Source: a virus
Reading direction: 5' to 3' (one strand)
DNA length: 22,205 nucleotides
IMG/VR virus record: IMGVR_UViG_3300010354_000756
Span: 1-22,205 of that record
The notes under the pieces were generated by a model that worked only from the letters and a program-made list of their open reading frames with translations, ran no database searches and was not told the origin of the DNA. Positions 8,500 through 16,845 of this stretch are shown in pieces. The position numbers and the translations under genes were made by a program. The first letter of the stretch is position 1; the number at the start of each line of letters is the position of its first letter.

Positions 8500-8994
8500 A
8501 TGGATAGAGAAATCTCCGCTATAGATGCAATTTATCAAATATTTGATAAAATTAATGATTTAGAAAAAAGAATTCAAGTTATAGATGATAACATTAAAAT
8601 TTTAAATAATAAAATAACGAAGTTAAATAAAAATGTTTCACAAGAAACTAGCAAATCAATTCCAACTGCAACAACAACTCCGCAACCTACTTTTAATGAT
8701 TCAGATTTAGCAAGTACTACTCAGAGTAGAGATGCAGAAAGATTATTGCTCGGTCCAACAAAAGTATATGGCTATATAATGACTAGAGCTAGACAGCCAA
8801 TATCAGATGTTATTATAAATATTTTTGATTCAAATAAAAAACTTGTAAAAACAAATAAAACAAATTCAGATGGATATTGGGAATCAAGGCTTCCAGCTGG
8901 AAGTTATGTTGTTGAATATATTCATAGTAAGTTTAAGCCAGTAAATAAAGAAATTGATATTGCTAAAAATATAAAAGAATATGAGGTTAAATAA
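8500..8994 (+). CDS. Small coiled-coil plus Ig-like (carboxypeptidase-regulatory-like) structural protein
   Basis: The protein has 164 residues. Residues about 8-50 form a heptad-rich helix (IFDKINDLEKRIQVIDDN, then ILNNKITKLNKNV) that predicts an oligomeric coiled coil. A Thr/Pro/Ser-rich linker follows (about 52-78). Residues about 88-155 resemble a carboxypeptidase-regulatory-like beta-sandwich: VYGYIMTRARQPISDVIINI, then TNSDGYWESRLPAGSYVVEY. The pattern of new strand, 'T.SDG.w...LPAG.Y.v' and closing strand is typical of such domains on virion surfaces. There is no signal peptide. The gene lies 18 bases after fibre gene B, with only a weak GGGTGGGTGA ribosome site, and overlaps the next gene by one base (TAATG). 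This suggests a fibre-attachment, decoration or collar part. The domain assignment is by pattern only. Confidence 0.65.
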   Translation: MDREISAIDAIYQIFDKINDLEKRIQVIDDNIKILNNKITKLNKNVSQETSKSIPTATTTPQPTFNDSDLASTTQSRDAERLLLGPTKVYGYIMTRARQPISDVIINIFDSNKKLVKTNKTNSDGYWESRLPAGSYVVEYIHSKFKPVNKEIDIAKNIKEYEVK

Positions 8995-9380
8995 TGTTTT
9001 CAATTTCAATAAAATCAAATGAAGATTTAAAAGAAGATTCAGTTAAAACTGGTAATAATATTGCAAAATTTATTAAAGAAAATTTAAATAAAGAATCTTT
9101 AATTATTAAAGATACTAATACATTTAATATTATATCAGGAAACATAAATACTAATAAAAATGATTTAATTGCAGAGATTAATTTTTCTTGCGAATTTTCC
9201 ATTTCTCAAGATGAAATTTTAGATAGAGATAAATTAGATAAATTTATTTTTTACATAAAAAGCTGTTTAGATAATCTTTCTACAATAGAAGATAACAAGT
9301 ATTTACCAATTCAATATAGGACGGAAAAAAACAACAATGATAGATCAGATAAATCTACCGGGACTGGGGCTAAACGCTGA
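8994..9380 (+). CDS. Hypothetical protein in tail operon
   Basis: The protein has 128 residues and I do not recognise the family. Its start overlaps the upstream stop (TAATG) and is preceded by GAGG at 8983-8986, so translation is probably coupled. The sequence is lysine- and asparagine-rich and begins MFSISIKSNEDLKEDS. It has alternating helix and strand character, with no membrane segment or signal peptide. The last 14 codons overlap the next gene in another frame, and the C-terminal tail is low-complexity and hydrophilic (NNNDRSDKSTGTGAKR). Its size and place just ahead of the sheath genes would fit a small tail-completion or tail-terminator protein, but no motif supports this. Confidence 0.6.
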   Translation: MFSISIKSNEDLKEDSVKTGNNIAKFIKENLNKESLIIKDTNTFNIISGNINTNKNDLIAEINFSCEFSISQDEILDRDKLDKFIFYIKSCLDNLSTIEDNKYLPIQYRTEKNNNDRSDKSTGTGAKR

Positions 9381-10146
9381 TCATATTGTATATTCTAGTT
9401 TTTTCAATGATAACTATATAATTCAACAAACTGCGATAGTTCATCCAAAGCATTTATTGATAGATGGCTTGAGACAGATTTTTAGAAGAGATTCAGTTTA
9501 TACCTATAGAGATGATGAATACGGTTATCCACTAACTCCAGATTTAACTGGAAAAACAATAGATTCTCTTGATACCACTAAGATACTAATTAGTGATGGA
9601 TATAGATATGAAACAAAATTTTATCCAGCAATAGTAATTAAATCAAATGGTGGAAGTTATAAGCCAAATTCTTTTAATCAGGATATGACCCTAAAATATA
9701 GATCTGATATTATAGAAAATGAATTTGGATCTAGAAGAGTTGTTTCAACACCAACACATAGAGTCTATACTGGTAAATGGAATTTAAATTTTGATGTTGC
9801 TGTATACTCTGAAAGTTTATCAGAGCTAAATGAGCTAATAGATATAACGTCGCTAGCTTTGCAGTTTTCACTATGGCATCCGCTAAGGGCTGCAGGTTTA
9901 TTTATTAGTGGTCTTAATATTGGCAGCGAAAATGCAGAGCCATATGCAAATGATTATGTATATAATACAAATATTACACTAAATACTATATCTGAATGGA
10001 GAGCTGAAATACCAATTGATAATTTAGTTGAAAAAATAGTTTTTAGAATTGAGCCAACTTTGCATCAAATTCCAGAAAATATTAAGACAGTTCAGGAATT
10101 AACTACTAAATATGATGATATATTAGAAATAACACAAATTATCTAA
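9337..10146 (+). CDS. Conserved-looking tail protein upstream of sheath, possible tail terminator/completion protein
   Basis: The protein has 269 residues and starts inside the previous gene (44-base overlap). Only a weak, distant AGGACGGA lies upstream, so the gene may depend on translational coupling. Recognisable segments are HRVYTGKWNLNFDVAVYSES, then LNELIDITSLALQF, ANDYVYNTNITLN, and EWRAEIP near the C-terminus. A mixed beta strand / helix / beta strand layout with 'DYVYNTNI.L....EW' resembles proteins encoded next to the sheath in many myoviruses. By position, before sheath and tube, a tail terminator, completion or sheath-capping role is plausible. This is inference from gene order; the fold was not tested. 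A neck or baseplate-wedge protein is the main alternative. Confidence 0.6.
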   Translation: MIDQINLPGLGLNADHIVYSSFFNDNYIIQQTAIVHPKHLLIDGLRQIFRRDSVYTYRDDEYGYPLTPDLTGKTIDSLDTTKILISDGYRYETKFYPAIVIKSNGGSYKPNSFNQDMTLKYRSDIIENEFGSRRVVSTPTHRVYTGKWNLNFDVAVYSESLSELNELIDITSLALQFSLWHPLRAAGLFISGLNIGSENAEPYANDYVYNTNITLNTISEWRAEIPIDNLVEKIVFRIEPTLHQIPENIKTVQELTTKYDDILEITQII

Positions 10147-10210: not shown

Positions 10211-13200
10211 ATGGCTAACATTCCAGGTATATCAGGATATATTCAGCCTGGCGCATTTGCAAGAGATCGTGTTGTTTCAAAGGCTGCCAGTATTCCTGGT
10301 GGACTAAGAGTTGCTGCAATTATGGGCGAAGGTATAAAAGAAGAAGTTATAGTAGAGTCTGCCGCAGGTGCCGGTCAGGATGGTTCTGCATCCTGCTCAC
10401 CAACAGGCAGTGGTGATGGAAGATTTTTCCAAATATCCAACTTTCCTGTTGTATCAGGAAGGACCGAAATAACTCTAAATGGCGAGCAGCTATATGGGGT
10501 TGAAGACGAAATTGATGAAGCTGGTTTTGATTCTAGATATGATTTCAGACTAGATACACAAACTGGATGCATAGAATTACAAGCACCAACCATAAAAGAT
10601 CAGGATGGAAGAGACTATTCAGTTAGCTCATTAAATATTGGAAATGGAACAATACCAAATACCTCAGATCCATGCAAAGTTTTAGATGTAATTGATAATA
10701 CAGCTCCAGCTGAAAGATGGACACTAAAATGTGCATCTGTAGTTAGAGATTCATCTGGAGCTCCAGTTCCAGGTAAAGCAACTTTTACAGTAACTGGTGA
10801 CGTATCTGGTCAAATATATGATTCAATAGGAAATCCTATATTTTTCCATAGCACATATTTCACAAGTTCATCTGGTGCAGTATCTGGAAATATAGATCCC
10901 TGTGTAGATGGTTATACAGTTGCATCATCTGATGAGTTTGGACAGGGAACCCCACAATCAGATGGTGGAGAAACTTTAGATACAACAAGTATATTTACAT
11001 TTTCTGGCAACCTTGTAGCTCAAGGTCAAGCGCTGCCAGGAGATTTCCTATGCCTTGATGGTTATACTTCTGTAGAAATTGATTCAATAACTTATGATTC
11101 AGGAACTGATACAACTACAGTAACTTTGGCATCCGATTCACTAGAAGGAGTTGGTTTTGCAAGAGATTGGGAAATAAAAGCAACAAATCTATTCATAGAT
11201 GATGTCGTATCTGGAAGCTTCACCGGATCTGATATAGGCAAGATTATATTGGCATGTCCAACAGGAAGTTTTGATGGTGGAAAGTTTGTAATTAAAAAAG
11301 TTACTGCAAACAATAGAGTTAGAGTACAAAAATATGAAGATGAAACAGTTGCATTTAGCTCACAAAGTGGTGTCGGCTTAACTGGAGTTGCACAAGATAA
11401 TATTACCTTCCATCTTGTAGAAACAAACGGAATAATTTTAGCAGGAATAAAAGAAGGATCAATTCCATTTGAAGTAGGAGATAGAATATTTGTTGATGTG
11501 GCATCCAGAGCCTTGGCTTTTGGAGATAGGCTAGCAGCAAGATATATATTTGAAGGCGACTTAAATGATCCTCAGTTCTTTACAGATGCAGAGCTTTTAT
11601 TCCAGAAGCATGGATTGCCATCTGAAGAAAATACTCTATCACTTGGTGCTCAAATGGCATTTGAGAATGGCGCACCAGGCATTTTGGCTGTACAATGCAA
11701 ACCTCCAGTTCCAAGAAGAACATCTGCAGAATTACTATCACCAGTAAATTCACTAGGAGTTGGTGGATTTACAGGATGTCTTGATGGCTCTGGCGTTATA
11801 GATGATGATCTATGTGGAGTTGAAGATCTAAGATTAATTATACCAAGACCTATCTTTGGACTAAGAGCTGGAAGACCAGACGCAGATTCTAGAGTTAATA
11901 TCTTTGTAAATAGAGCTGGAGTTGAAACTCAAATATTCCCAAATAAAGTAGAGTTCTACAATAGTCTGTTAGAATCAGATTCTCAACAGTTAAACTTCAT
12001 AACTAGTAATGATAATCCATTCTCATACACAATTGTAAATACAGATACAGAAATTTTATTTACAGCAGAAGATGGTGTAATGGTAAGCTCATCTGGAGTT
12101 AGATCAATATCAAGCTTATTCATAGATCTTGATGGAAGTCATGTTGGCTCTACAATAGTAATAGAGTCAATGGAAGATACATCTGGAAATATATATACAA
12201 GTGTCTCCGATATATCAGAGCAGCTATATGGTCCAACACCAGATGACGTATCTGCTGAGGTTGTAATATCGGCAGTATCCTCTGATTCAAAGGCTGTTAT
12301 AGCTGGAAGTGGAACAAATACCTTAACATTTACAGATAAATTTGTAAATATACAATTCTTTATCAAATCACAAAACACAACAAATGTAAATGCTGCTTTA
12401 TTGCTACATAAAGACTTAGTAAAGAGCGGAGCAATAAAGAAAGGTGATGGCATAAGAATAACTTATGTTGATGAAAATGATGCTGATTATTTTGATACAA
12501 ATTGGTTTGAAGCATTTGAGAAGCTAGAAGCTGCAGATGCTCAGATGATAATTCCACTGCCTTCCAGCACCGTTTCCTCTATATTCAAGGCTGCAGTAGG
12601 ACACTGCGAGACTATGAGCTCCATAGCCAATAGAAAGGAAAGAATGGCAATAATTGGAGCACAGATTGGATTAACTCCAGCCAATATACTTGGCGAATCA
12701 AGTGCAGCTGTAGAAGACCTTGGAATTTTAGAAGGAATACAGGGAGATGATCCACTGGAAGTTCTAACTGGTGATGTAGAAGACCTTGCGAACTACAAGT
12801 TATCTGATAATTACTCATCATCAAGAGCTGTTTATCTGTACCCAGATTCTATAGTTAGAAATGTATCTGGTACAAATATTGCTCTACCAGGATTCTACAT
12901 GGCTCCAGCAGTAGCCGGTCTGATGTCAGCAACTCAAAATGTCGCAATACCTCTAACAAATAAAGTTCTTCAAGGATTTACTCTAACAAGAGATAAAATC
13001 TTTAGACAGGTAATTCTAGACAGACTAGGTGGTGCTGGCGCCACAGTAATTCAACCAATACCAGGTGGTGGAAGAGTTTTAGCCGGAAGAACAACAAGTC
13101 AGAGTGGATATGTTGAAGATGAAGAAATCTCAATTGTATTTATTAGAGATAGAGTAAAGCAAGTCCTAAGACAATCACTAGCTGGATTTATTGGTGGAGT

Positions 13201-13408
13201 TCAAGGTCCAGATACACTATCCCTAATATCTGCTAGAACAAAAGTCATAATGACCGGACTTTCATCTCAAGGCTTAATTACAAGCTTTGGAAATATTAGA
13301 GCATCAAGGGATAAGGTTGATCCAAGACAAATAAACATTTTCCTACAGTTCGTACCAACCTATCCAATAAATTATGTCTTTATAGACATTGAAGTTGGAA
13401 TAATTTAA
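10211..13408 (+). CDS. Contractile tail sheath protein (large form)
   Basis: This 1065-residue protein forms the outer contractile layer of the tail. The N-terminus (MANIPGISGYIQPGAFARDR) has the typical sheath opening. The sheath core is visible at about 470-500 (ENTLSLGAQMAFENGAPGIL), about 775-820 (MIIPLPSSTVSSI, then HCETMSSIANRKERMAIIGA) and in the C-terminal domain (LQGFTLTRDKIFRQVILDR, VFIRDRVKQVLRQSLAGFIG). The end, FVPTYPINYVFIDIEVGII, is a beta strand of the kind that links neighbouring subunits. Residues about 45-440 and about 540-740 are extra beta-rich domains, making it much longer than T4 gp18 (659 aa). It has a strong ribosome site and somewhat GC-richer codons than its neighbours, consistent with high expression. 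The tube gene follows after 13 bases. Confidence 0.95.
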   Translation: MANIPGISGYIQPGAFARDRVVSKAASIPGGLRVAAIMGEGIKEEVIVESAAGAGQDGSASCSPTGSGDGRFFQISNFPVVSGRTEITLNGEQLYGVEDEIDEAGFDSRYDFRLDTQTGCIELQAPTIKDQDGRDYSVSSLNIGNGTIPNTSDPCKVLDVIDNTAPAERWTLKCASVVRDSSGAPVPGKATFTVTGDVSGQIYDSIGNPIFFHSTYFTSSSGAVSGNIDPCVDGYTVASSDEFGQGTPQSDGGETLDTTSIFTFSGNLVAQGQALPGDFLCLDGYTSVEIDSITYDSGTDTTTVTLASDSLEGVGFARDWEIKATNLFIDDVVSGSFTGSDIGKIILACPTGSFDGGKFVIKKVTANNRVRVQKYEDETVAFSSQSGVGLTGVAQDNITFHLVETNGIILAGIKEGSIPFEVGDRIFVDVASRALAFGDRLAARYIFEGDLNDPQFFTDAELLFQKHGLPSEENTLSLGAQMAFENGAPGILAVQCKPPVPRRTSAELLSPVNSLGVGGFTGCLDGSGVIDDDLCGVEDLRLIIPRPIFGLRAGRPDADSRVNIFVNRAGVETQIFPNKVEFYNSLLESDSQQLNFITSNDNPFSYTIVNTDTEILFTAEDGVMVSSSGVRSISSLFIDLDGSHVGSTIVIESMEDTSGNIYTSVSDISEQLYGPTPDDVSAEVVISAVSSDSKAVIAGSGTNTLTFTDKFVNIQFFIKSQNTTNVNAALLLHKDLVKSGAIKKGDGIRITYVDENDADYFDTNWFEAFEKLEAADAQMIIPLPSSTVSSIFKAAVGHCETMSSIANRKERMAIIGAQIGLTPANILGESSAAVEDLGILEGIQGDDPLEVLTGDVEDLANYKLSDNYSSSRAVYLYPDSIVRNVSGTNIALPGFYMAPAVAGLMSATQNVAIPLTNKVLQGFTLTRDKIFRQVILDRLGGAGATVIQPIPGGGRVLAGRTTSQSGYVEDEEISIVFIRDRVKQVLRQSLAGFIGGVQGPDTLSLISARTKVIMTGLSSQGLITSFGNIRASRDKVDPRQINIFLQFVPTYPINYVFIDIEVGII

Positions 13409-13421
13409 GGAGTAAATAAAA

Positions 13422-14060
13422 ATGGCATCTTATCCATATACAGGTACACTATTTGATTCTGAGGCAGTAACTGGTGCAAAAACTAGAACTGGTTTAAGTA
13501 CACAGATCGTTATCTATGTAAATAATCAGCCAGTTGGTGCCATCCAGTCTTTCTCAGAAAGACAAAATAGACCAATAAAGAGAATAAGCGAAGTCGGAAC
13601 AGACGGAGTTATAGAAGCAGTACCACAGGGTCCAACAACCGTAGATTTAACAGTAAACAGACTATATTTTGATGGTCTTTCTCTTCCAGAATCTATGGCA
13701 AGAGGATTTAGAAACATTCACTCTCAAAGAATACCTTTTGATATTGTTGTAATCGACAGATTTACAGGAACAGAGGAAGAGGGTGGGTCAATAGTTACTA
13801 CATATCATAACTGCTGGTTCCAAAGCTTAGATAGAGCATATAACGTAAACGATTATACAATCGTAGAAAATGCAAGCATTATGGTTGAGACTGTAAGCAC
13901 AGAAAGAAACGGAGCACCAGTTGCAAGCAGTCAGGGTGTTGGTGGAGGAAGAGATCTTGGCTCAGAAGGTCGCCAGATTGATGCAGTTGAGCAGGCTGCT
14001 GATTACGGCACATATAGAGGCAGCTTAGACTTCCCAGGTTTAATTAAATCTGCATTTTAA
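13422..14060 (+). CDS. Tail tube protein
   Basis: The protein has 212 residues. Placement directly after the sheath and directly before a terminator and the chaperone genes is the classic myovirus tube position. The sequence is beta-rich (VIYVNNQPVGAIQSFSERQN, then RISEVGTDGVIEAVPQG, TTVDLTVNRLYFDG, IPFDIVVIDRF, YTIVENASIMVETVS), as expected for the gp19-like beta-barrel that stacks as hexameric rings to form the inner tube. The C-terminal region is glycine-rich (QGVGGGRDLGSEGRQ) and may be a flexible or sheath-facing tail. The ribosome site AAGGAG (13407-13412) overlaps the sheath stop codon, so sheath and tube are probably translated from one message. Confidence 0.88.
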   Translation: MASYPYTGTLFDSEAVTGAKTRTGLSTQIVIYVNNQPVGAIQSFSERQNRPIKRISEVGTDGVIEAVPQGPTTVDLTVNRLYFDGLSLPESMARGFRNIHSQRIPFDIVVIDRFTGTEEEGGSIVTTYHNCWFQSLDRAYNVNDYTIVENASIMVETVSTERNGAPVASSQGVGGGRDLGSEGRQIDAVEQAADYGTYRGSLDFPGLIKSAF

Positions 14061-14078: not shown

Positions 14079-14115
14079 TAAGCCTATCGTATTTTTGCGA
14101 TAGGCTTATTTTTTT
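14079..14115 (+). terminator. Intrinsic (Rho-independent) terminator after tail tube gene
   Basis: An 11-bp perfect stem (14079-14089 paired with 14098-14108; TAAGCCTATCG with CGATAGGCTTA) closes an 8-base loop and is followed at once by seven T residues (14109-14115). It lies 18 bases after the tube stop. It would end or attenuate transcripts carrying sheath and tube before the low-copy chaperone and tape-measure genes. Confidence 0.9.
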
Positions 14116-14123
14116 GGTATAAT
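14095..14123 (+). promoter_or_regulatory. Candidate sigma70-type extended -10 promoter overlapping the terminator
   Basis: TTGCGA (14095-14100, 4 of 6 to TTGACA) is followed after exactly 17 bases by TATAAT (14118-14123), with TGG directly before it giving an extended -10 (TGnTATAAT). The predicted start near 14130 would leave a leader of about 15 bases beginning with the GGAG ribosome site. The -35 lies in the terminator loop and 3' stem arm. The placement in an intergenic gap supports it, but the AT-rich background makes chance matches easy. Confidence 0.45.
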
Positions 14124-14144: not shown

Positions 14145-14594
14145 ATGTCAAAAACATCTGTATCACTAGATAATAAAAGAGATTCTGATAAAAAAGTTAC
14201 TACAGAAGAAAAAAAAATGTCATTAAAAAGCTTAAAAGACTTATTGTTCTTAGGAAGATCCGAAAATATTATAACAATAGAAGGTATAGACTTTAAGTTA
14301 AAAACAATAACGGCTGAAGAGCAGAGAAATATAATTTTAAAAATTATGAAAATGCAAGAAGAATATAGGATTCTATCTGCTAAAATTGTTACTTTGGCTT
14401 TTTCAATTACATCAATAAATAATGTTCCATTTGAAAGCTTTACAGATGATAATTTAGATGGAGATATTTACGATAAAAGAATAGCTATTGTTGAGCAGCT
14501 ACAAGCATCAGTTATTGATAAGTTATATAATTTTTATGAAAAAATGGTAAAAGAATCAAATTTAGAGGCTGATGTTGAAGAAATAAAAAAATAG
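14145..14594 (+). CDS. Tail assembly chaperone, short form (gpG-like)
   Basis: This 149-residue protein ends at TAG 14592-14594 and is preceded by GGAG at 14130-14133. In myo- and siphophages, a small acidic/basic helical protein in this position binds the tape-measure protein and is absent from the mature virion. The first 30 residues are charged and probably flexible. The core (FLGRSENIITIEGIDFKLKT, then ITAEEQRNIILKIMKMQ) has the 'strand-turn-strand then helix' look of chaperone proteins that assess a tail/tube peptide. The gene sits between tube and tape measure and ends in A-AAA-AAA-TAG followed by a stem-loop. The identification rests mainly on this position and architecture; sequence similarity is not demonstrated. 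Confidence 0.85.
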   Translation: MSKTSVSLDNKRDSDKKVTTEEKKMSLKSLKDLLFLGRSENIITIEGIDFKLKTITAEEQRNIILKIMKMQEEYRILSAKIVTLAFSITSINNVPFESFTDDNLDGDIYDKRIAIVEQLQASVIDKLYNFYEKMVKESNLEADVEEIKK

Positions 14595-15019
14595 CAGAGG
14601 GTCCAGAATCAAAGATTCTATGGACCCTATCTAAGTACTGGGGCTGCCCAATAACGGACAGCAAAATAACTAGTATAAATCCAGTTCAGCTATACTGGTA
14701 TGCTATAATGATTAGTAAGGATATTGAGGATGATCTTGAAAAAAATCTTAATTTCTCAGAATATATAGCATCATTCTTTAACCCAGATGCTGTATCAAAA
14801 ATAAAGAAAGCAAGAGAGGCAAGAAAAGATAATAGATTTATGAGTGATGAAGATTTTGATAATTTGATTAAGAATAAAGATTTCCTAAATGTAGATTACA
14901 AACAAAATAATACTAATATTAATGATATTAATACCGCTCCAGAGAGAAAAGGCGCTAGAGATGTTAGACTTCCAAAAGAACTTTCTGGTATTCTGAAGAT
15001 AAATAGAGAAAATTTTTAG
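14145..15019 (+). CDS. Tail assembly chaperone, -1 frameshift fusion (gpGT-like)
   Basis: Slippage by -1 on A AAA AAA (14585-14591) joins the 149-residue G part to 142 more residues, for a 291-residue protein ending at TAG 15017-15019. After the shift the sequence reads IAEGPESKILWTLSKYWGCP and continues to NPVQLYWYAIMISKDIEDD. The 'LW.L..YWG' segment is typical of T-domains, which recruit tube subunits. The -1 frame is closed by TGA at 14576-14578 just upstream, so the shift must happen within about 16 bases that contain the slippery site. The downstream frame is open for 39 codons before its first ATG (14708), which lacks a ribosome site; independent translation is therefore unlikely. The C-terminal part (about 225-291) is polar and charged. 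Confidence 0.85.
14585..14591 (+). promoter_or_regulatory. -1 ribosomal frameshift slippery heptamer A AAA AAA
   Basis: Zero-frame codons are ATA AAA AAA TAG, so the heptamer is in the correct phase for X-XXY-YYZ slippage: both AAA codons re-pair perfectly after a -1 shift. The zero-frame TAG follows immediately, which tends to lengthen the pause. Confidence 0.88.
14598..14628 (+). promoter_or_regulatory. Frameshift-stimulating stem-loop
   Basis: AGGGTCCA (14598-14605) pairs perfectly with TGGACCCT (14621-14628), and GAATC (14606-14610) with GATTC (14614-14618). This gives 13 bp, a 3-base AAA loop and a 2-base bulge (14619-14620). The spacer from the slippery site is 6 bases, within the usual 5-9. 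There is no T-run after it, so it is not a terminator. Confidence 0.85.
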
Positions 15020-15027
15020 GAAATTAA

Positions 15028-16845
15028 ATGTCATCTAGTGATATACCAATAATAAATAATATTAGGCAAGCAAAAGAAGCTGCTGGAAATCTTAATAATG
15101 ATGTAAGAGATTTAACTAAGTCTTATTCAAAATTTGGTGATGCTGTATATTTGGCAACAAAGGGCGGCAAGGATGGTCTGGATGATCTTATTAAAGCTTC
15201 CGGCCAAGCCAACGAAAGCATTAAGGCTACAATTAATTTATTTTCAGATATAGCAGGTAATATACCTGGTCTAGATGGAGTTTCAGAGGTTTTTAGGGAA
15301 ATAACTTCTAGTGCATTTGATTTTTCAACAAAATTATTTGAAACTGCTGGAAGGGGTGCACAAGAATTAATTGATGGATTGGACTCTCAAAGTAAGGCAC
15401 TAAGAGAAGTTGATTCCAGTATGTTTGGTGTGGTAAAATCTTTTGGAGAAGGTATAGGTGTTGCTAGAGAATTCACAGCATCAATATCAGCTCAATCTTT
15501 AACAGATTTTGCAAAAGCAGCTTATATATCAACTGATGATTTAAAAAGTTTTATAGAAGCAACAAGAGGATCTAACTTATCTCTATCAACTTTATCTCAA
15601 ACAATATCCACTGCATATGGTAATTTAGATTTCTATACAGTTGCCTTGCTGCAAGCAAGTGCTGCGGGAATATCTATCAATGAATCTACTAGATTATTAG
15701 ATGTTGCAATTAACAAACAAGGATTAACAGCCCAGACGGCTTTGGAGGTTATGTCTGGCTTTTCAGAAGTATCAAGAGAGACTGGAATATCATTCTCAAC
15801 TGTAGCAAATACATTAAATAGTGCCGCAAATCAGTTTAGTAAACTAGGCATGTCAGCAGAGTTTGGAAGACCAATTTTAGAAAATTTTGCAAAAACAGTT
15901 AAAGAGGTTGGACTAGGTATTGATGTTGCAACTGAATCTACAACTTCGCTCGTTTCTGCTATGGGTGGTTTATCTGATAATTATGGTTTAGCATATTTAA
16001 CACAGCTTAGAGGCGGTGGGGGAGTTACATCTGGGGTTCTTGGAACATCAATTGAGATGAGGCAGAGTTTAAGAGAGGCCGAGGAATCTGGTGATCAAGG
16101 ATCAATTGCGTTAAGAATGGCAAACCAGATAAAAGAAGCAATATCATCATTAACTGGTGGAAATATAATAACTTTAGAGCAAGCTGCAAAATCACCAGAT
16201 CTTCAGTCACAATTTTACATGCAGGGACAACTTTTATCACAGTATGGAATAAGAGATACCGGAACTCAAGATGCAGTATTAGATTTACTCTCAAAAATAG
16301 ATGAAGCTGGAATATCTGGAAATATGGGGGGACAAGAAGAGCTTGCAAAACAGCTATCCATGGAAATAGAAGGAAGAGAGAAAATTATAAGTGAAAATGA
16401 AAAATTAGGAATAGAAATCGGTTCATTAAAGTTTGCAATAGCAGAGCTAACAAGACCAGTTTCAGAGATTAGCAGAAGTATTGCTGGTGATATTAGAGGT
16501 GTTATAACTGATGAATCTAGAGATATTTATGAAAATCTTGTTGAGTCTATATCTGAAAAAATGCCAGATGCAATTAAAACATTATCTGATGCCATTGATT
16601 CTTTAAAATCATTTGATTTTAAAGAATCAATAAAAGGTTTATTTGCAAGTACTGATTCATCTATGGTGAACAATGCAGCTGATCCGGTTGAATTAGGTAA
16701 AACAGCTATATCATCAATTAGAGATGATATAAAACAAGCACTAAGAGAAGCCTTAATAGTAAAAATTGAACTATCACAAGATGCGCAAAGATTAGTTGCA
16801 GCTACAGCATCGTCACCCGCAGTAACCTTGAATACTACACAATAA
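15028..16845 (+). CDS. Tail tape-measure protein
   Basis: The protein has 605 residues and directly follows the G/GT frameshift cassette, the standard place for the tape measure. It is alanine/serine-rich and mostly helical: long amphipathic runs at about 1-140 (NNIRQAKEAAGNLNNDVRDL), a glycine/alanine-rich middle (LTQLRGGGGVTSGVLGTS near 325-345) and helical charged C-terminal stretches. At about 1.5 angstrom per residue it would set a tail of roughly 90 nm, if the whole chain spans the tube. I see no lysozyme or peptidase motif, unlike many longer tape measures. The ribosome site AGGAA (15018-15022) overlaps the upstream stop, so translation is tied to GT output. Certainty rests on context, length and composition. 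Confidence 0.85.
   Translation: MSSSDIPIINNIRQAKEAAGNLNNDVRDLTKSYSKFGDAVYLATKGGKDGLDDLIKASGQANESIKATINLFSDIAGNIPGLDGVSEVFREITSSAFDFSTKLFETAGRGAQELIDGLDSQSKALREVDSSMFGVVKSFGEGIGVAREFTASISAQSLTDFAKAAYISTDDLKSFIEATRGSNLSLSTLSQTISTAYGNLDFYTVALLQASAAGISINESTRLLDVAINKQGLTAQTALEVMSGFSEVSRETGISFSTVANTLNSAANQFSKLGMSAEFGRPILENFAKTVKEVGLGIDVATESTTSLVSAMGGLSDNYGLAYLTQLRGGGGVTSGVLGTSIEMRQSLREAEESGDQGSIALRMANQIKEAISSLTGGNIITLEQAAKSPDLQSQFYMQGQLLSQYGIRDTGTQDAVLDLLSKIDEAGISGNMGGQEELAKQLSMEIEGREKIISENEKLGIEIGSLKFAIAELTRPVSEISRSIAGDIRGVITDESRDIYENLVESISEKMPDAIKTLSDAIDSLKSFDFKESIKGLFASTDSSMVNNAADPVELGKTAISSIRDDIKQALREALIVKIELSQDAQRLVAATASSPAVTLNTTQ

Follow-up and report, generated by a model that had tools for sequence, protein, structure and literature searches.

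The tail chaperone gene in the window, the 22,205-nt stretch of IMG/VR virus record IMGVR_UViG_3300010354_000756 analysed here, almost certainly carries a programmed −1 ribosomal frameshift, by which two tail assembly chaperones would be made from one start; the slippage itself we infer from the features listed in Table 1. The locus is very probably a well-supported further example of a device known from many phages, the giant Bacillus phage G included. The frameshift reading rests on an in-phase heptamer found in all of the 46 distinct loci compared, on a −1 frame that is conserved directly from that heptamer, and on a downstream hairpin stronger than the coding sequence demands.

Reading frames and slippery site

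The zero-frame ORF is preceded by a GGAG Shine-Dalgarno sequence and ends as ATA AAA AAA TAG, so that the A7 run, read in the frame of the TAG at 14592, fits the pattern X XXY YYZ. The earlier note had placed A AAA AAA in this phase right before the stop, which was confirmed to the base. It had also described the −1 frame as closed by TGA at 14576-14578 and open from there to the TAG at 15017, and this holds as well; the overlap in which a switch of frame is permitted is, however, 13 nt (14579-14591) and not about 16 bases, a figure that includes the TGA. A slip on the heptamer gives a fusion of 291 residues with the junction ...EIKK-IAEGPESK.... As anticipated earlier, this product escapes simple gene calling, the mechanical ORF caller beginning the second half at 14708; gene-calling programs would leave the fusion unreported and give the T half a wrong start.

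Table 1. Positions of the frameshift elements and of neighbouring features in the window
Feature	Position	Strand	Basis
Zero-frame ORF, gpG-like tail assembly chaperone, 149 aa	14145..14594	+	ORF, PHROG, predicted fold
Slippery heptamer A AAA AAA	14585..14591	+	Zero-frame phase; equivalent site in 46/46 distinct loci
Zero-frame stop TAG, abutting the heptamer	14592..14594	+	Sequence
−1 frame, T-like extension	14579..15019	+	Post-slippage reading from 14591 to TAG 15017
Putative stimulatory hairpin, 8 bp + 2-nt bulge + 5 bp, AAA loop, 6-nt spacer	14598..14628	+	Folding, shuffles
Artefactual second-half ORF of simple gene calling	14708..15019	+	ORF caller; no Shine-Dalgarno
Probable tail tube protein, 212 aa, upstream neighbour	13422..14060	+	Homologue of phage G gp180, tube candidate
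Intrinsic-terminator-like hairpin with T-run, then GTATAAT	14079..14123	+	Between tube and chaperone genes
Probable tape measure protein, 605 aa, downstream neighbour	15028..16845	+	Position; phage G synteny; weak profiles

In the proposed mechanism, most ribosomes would translate 14145-14591 and terminate at TAG 14592, releasing the 149-residue gpG-like chaperone. While tRNA-Lys occupies both the P site and the A site over A AAA AAA, ribosomes would be held up by the hairpin 6 nt farther on, and some of them would slip back one base and read ATA GCA GAG GGT... into the 291-residue gpGT-like protein. This tandem tRNA-Lys slippage would be aided by the hairpin, and perhaps also by the adjoining stop. 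By analogy with lambda, the tape measure would be bound by the G part and tube subunits recruited by the T part, and the ratio of the two products would matter for assembly.

Conservation of the site among related loci

Relatives were gathered from close relatives and by a profile search with the T segment, which led to dozens of viral contigs, some of them 200-335 kb long; 46 distinct loci from many metagenomes, the window included, were tabulated. All 46 carry a canonical heptamer in phase, either 0 nt (30 loci) or 3 nt (16 loci) before the zero-frame stop, and the heptamer is A AAA AAA, T TTA AAA, A AAA AAC or T TTA AAG. Only 2 of 197 control ORFs end with such a heptamer as compared to these loci (Fisher p about 1e-47, for sequences that are not fully independent). 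A search seed that is independent of the heptamer, EY[ILM]ASF[IFW]N, is found in each of the 46, and recovery of the loci therefore need not have relied on the heptamer. Four more distinct loci (L083, L095, L098 and L099) likewise have A AAA AAA. The open −1 frame recurs in all 46 loci, in the four further ones and in Bacillus phage G. The check that the earlier note had proposed, whether heptamer and hairpin are conserved in relatives, thus gave the heptamer throughout the 46 loci and, in most of them, a hairpin beyond coding need. No relative was found when the T-segment profile was run against 84,980 bacterial and archaeal genomes, and so no host or prophage link was obtained.

Purifying selection acts on the T segment as early as the first codon 3' of the heptamer, with dN of 0.09-0.26 as compared to dS of 0.89-1.94 over the 39 codons that precede its first ATG.

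Downstream hairpin

The 13-bp stem-loop described earlier at a spacing of 6 bases has the structure then given. Its folding energy is −17.7 kcal/mol (z −3.3, and −4.2 in a second computation), and the z value at this site is the lowest among 143 segments sampled across the chaperone gene and the neighbouring genes. Base-pair covariation shows one pair changed on both sides, a score equalled by 31 of 500 shuffles, and is weak when taken alone because most stem pairs never vary among close relatives. As the stem is nearly invariant in them, codon-preserving shuffles were used. Shuffles that keep the protein in the −1 frame and the codon usage of the window match the hairpin energy in 4 of 10,000 cases (z −4.1), and synonymous shuffles of the 46 distinct loci, the window among them, give a mean hairpin z of −3.1, with 33 loci below −2. 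The hairpin is stronger than protein coding demands, and its stimulatory role is putative. Four loci, L023, L064, L065 and L066, show no significantly strong hairpin (z −1.0, −1.2, 0.5 and −1.0, respectively). A Shine-Dalgarno-like stimulator upstream of the heptamer was also sought; GAGG is present in the window and absent in many relatives, and the element is not consistent.

Identity of the two products

The G part matches tail assembly chaperones in PHROG (8e-6; PHROG 2792 and 2992, six of nine members matching). Its AlphaFold2 model has a mean pLDDT of 75 and a disordered N-terminus. The best two matches of the predicted fold are the HK97 tail assembly chaperone 2ob9 (Z 7.9, 98 of 107 residues), a Z value that is middling on its own, and Bacillus YqbN 3klu (Z 7.2, 99 residues); the likeness is one of fold, yet at 8-15% identity. 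Foldseek of the G model against the PDB alone gave no significant match, and the chaperones were obtained through a second look. Against a viral structure library, the G model matches gp181 of phage G (Foldseek E 7e-8), and the best match of the T model is gp182 of the same phage (E 6e-4). The PHROG matches, the predicted-fold matches and the gene order together support the first product as a probable tail assembly chaperone.

The chaperone gene lies between the tube and tape measure genes, an order shared with the relatives and with phage G. By profile the tape measure call is weak, the TMP_3 and PhageMin_Tail matches being below cut-off.

Relation to Bacillus phage G and lambda

The phages of this lineage are uncultivated and contractile-tailed, and the nearest named relative found for them, and the only one clearly recovered, is Bacillus phage G (Donellivirus gee; JN638751). 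A tblastn search of P0002 against annotated phages gave no match, and phage G was reached only via more distant members. Its gp181 is homologous to the G part (hhalign 97.9%, E 3.6e-13) and its gp182 to the T part (hhalign 96.5%, E 8.8e-10). In phage G, too, a slippery heptamer abuts a TAG, between a tube candidate and the tape measure, and gp181/gp182 are annotated as a joined CDS for the frameshift product. In phage G the heptamer is A AAA AAC where the window has A AAA AAA, the hairpin is weaker by MFE than that of the window, the T part is longer (gp182, 367 aa), and the tape measure gene has about 2,893 codons as compared to the 605 residues here.

The likeness to gpG and gpGT of lambda is one of arrangement: a position between tube and tape measure, a −1 frame, and a short chaperone with a longer fusion. 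The slippery site of lambda and its distance to the stop differ from those at the present loci. In lambda, gpG and gpGT are made at about 30:1, and the tape measure is bound by G and the tube by T (PMC5009743). According to the work of Xu, Hendrix and Duda (2004) as cited in that paper, the tail-assembly frameshift is conserved in dsDNA phages. The gp181/gp182 pair of phage G has been published as a G-T frameshift, and it was on account of the lambda-type frameshift that its authors called the two proteins chaperones (PMC8570332). Since this homologue is already published, the arrangement is not new, only this instance; the earlier note was right that G/GT arrangements are known, and its suggestion of novelty stands for this particular sequence only. 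No paper describing this frameshift for jumbo metagenomic phages came up in a literature search that reached few subscription papers. Some 50 distinct examples are added by these loci, among them several from contigs 200-360 kb long, and together they present a conserved signal whose heptamer changes type.

Alternative explanations and the split-gene relative

If the two halves were separate genes, translation of the second would begin independently at ATG 14708, or else ribosomes terminating at the TAG would reinitiate close by. Such an arrangement does occur in L078, a distant relative with a Shine-Dalgarno sequence and ATG for T and a terminator-like hairpin between its G and T genes, and an ATG lies near the stop in the L095 group, L067 and L073. 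For the window it is highly improbable. ATG 14708 is the first ATG of the −1 frame, has no Shine-Dalgarno sequence and follows 39 codons that are conserved in that frame, in agreement with the earlier claim that the downstream segment has no credible start of its own. The −1-frame codon overlapping the zero-frame stop in the 46 loci (ATA in 39, CTA in 5, TTA and GTA in one each) is never ATG, GTG or TTG, which disfavours reinitiation, and separate genes leave the heptamer of all 46 unexplained.

The two remaining explanations appeal to the A7 run as a homopolymer. Transcriptional slippage, for which runs of A or T can be permissive, would produce mRNAs one base longer or shorter and fuse the frames without any slip of the ribosome. 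It is very unlikely, as T TTA AAA, A AAA AAC and T TTA AAG in the relatives are canonical tandem-slippage heptamers that contain no 7-base homopolymer, and a selected hairpin at a 6-nt spacing suits the ribosome. A sequencing or assembly error in the run, to which homopolymers are prone, could divide one real gene, as the earlier note had warned. This can hardly be entertained, because the frame relation is equal in the 46 distinct loci of many metagenomes, non-A7 heptamers included, and in the isolate phage G; recurrence across independent assemblies refutes it in practice. The switch of heptamer type among relatives thus rules out sequencing error and disfavours RNA-polymerase slippage, and programmed ribosomal frameshifting is the preferred reading.

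Relatives with two clearly separate genes had been named earlier as a finding that would count against the frameshift, and L078 (2454-3316) is one such case; the 46 tabulated loci all keep the heptamer. The gene order of L078 is sheath, tube, G, T and a tape measure of 606 aa. Its G gene stops at TAA 2826-2828 and is followed by a terminator-like hairpin with a T-run (AGACGAGAAG...CTTCTCGTCTTTTTTTT), and its T gene starts at ATG 2891, preceded by an AGG Shine-Dalgarno sequence. The split is seen on one contig, unreplicated; L078 is a distant outlier and has no bearing on the window's own site. It is conceivable, though rather doubtful, that the lineage sets its G/GT ratio by two interchangeable devices, almost all members using the frameshift, and L078 split genes in which the terminator-like hairpin would act by transcriptional attenuation. 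If true, the lineage would offer a natural experiment on what makes phages retain the frameshift, and the outlier makes that question of retention testable.

The near-identical loci L095, L096 and L097, on contigs of 49, 61 and 359 kb, have A AAA AAA before a TAA whose last bases are overlapped by an ATG (TAATG); T might therefore also arise by reinitiation in these three.

Other observations in the neighbourhood

The GTATAAT motif lies just 5' of the chaperone ribosome site, and the order of terminator-like hairpin and GTATAAT is found in eight relatives with differing hairpin sequences. The sequence of this region suggests that the tube and chaperone genes may be transcribed separately.

The tail sheath (10211-13408) has 1065 aa, almost twice the 579 aa of the phage G sheath. 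A large insertion is likely, because homology to known sheaths is limited to about the last third. The ORFs 8994-9380 and 9337-10146 overlap by 44 nt, with an A7 run at 9325. This overlap may be genuine, or the second ORF may have been assigned a wrong start.
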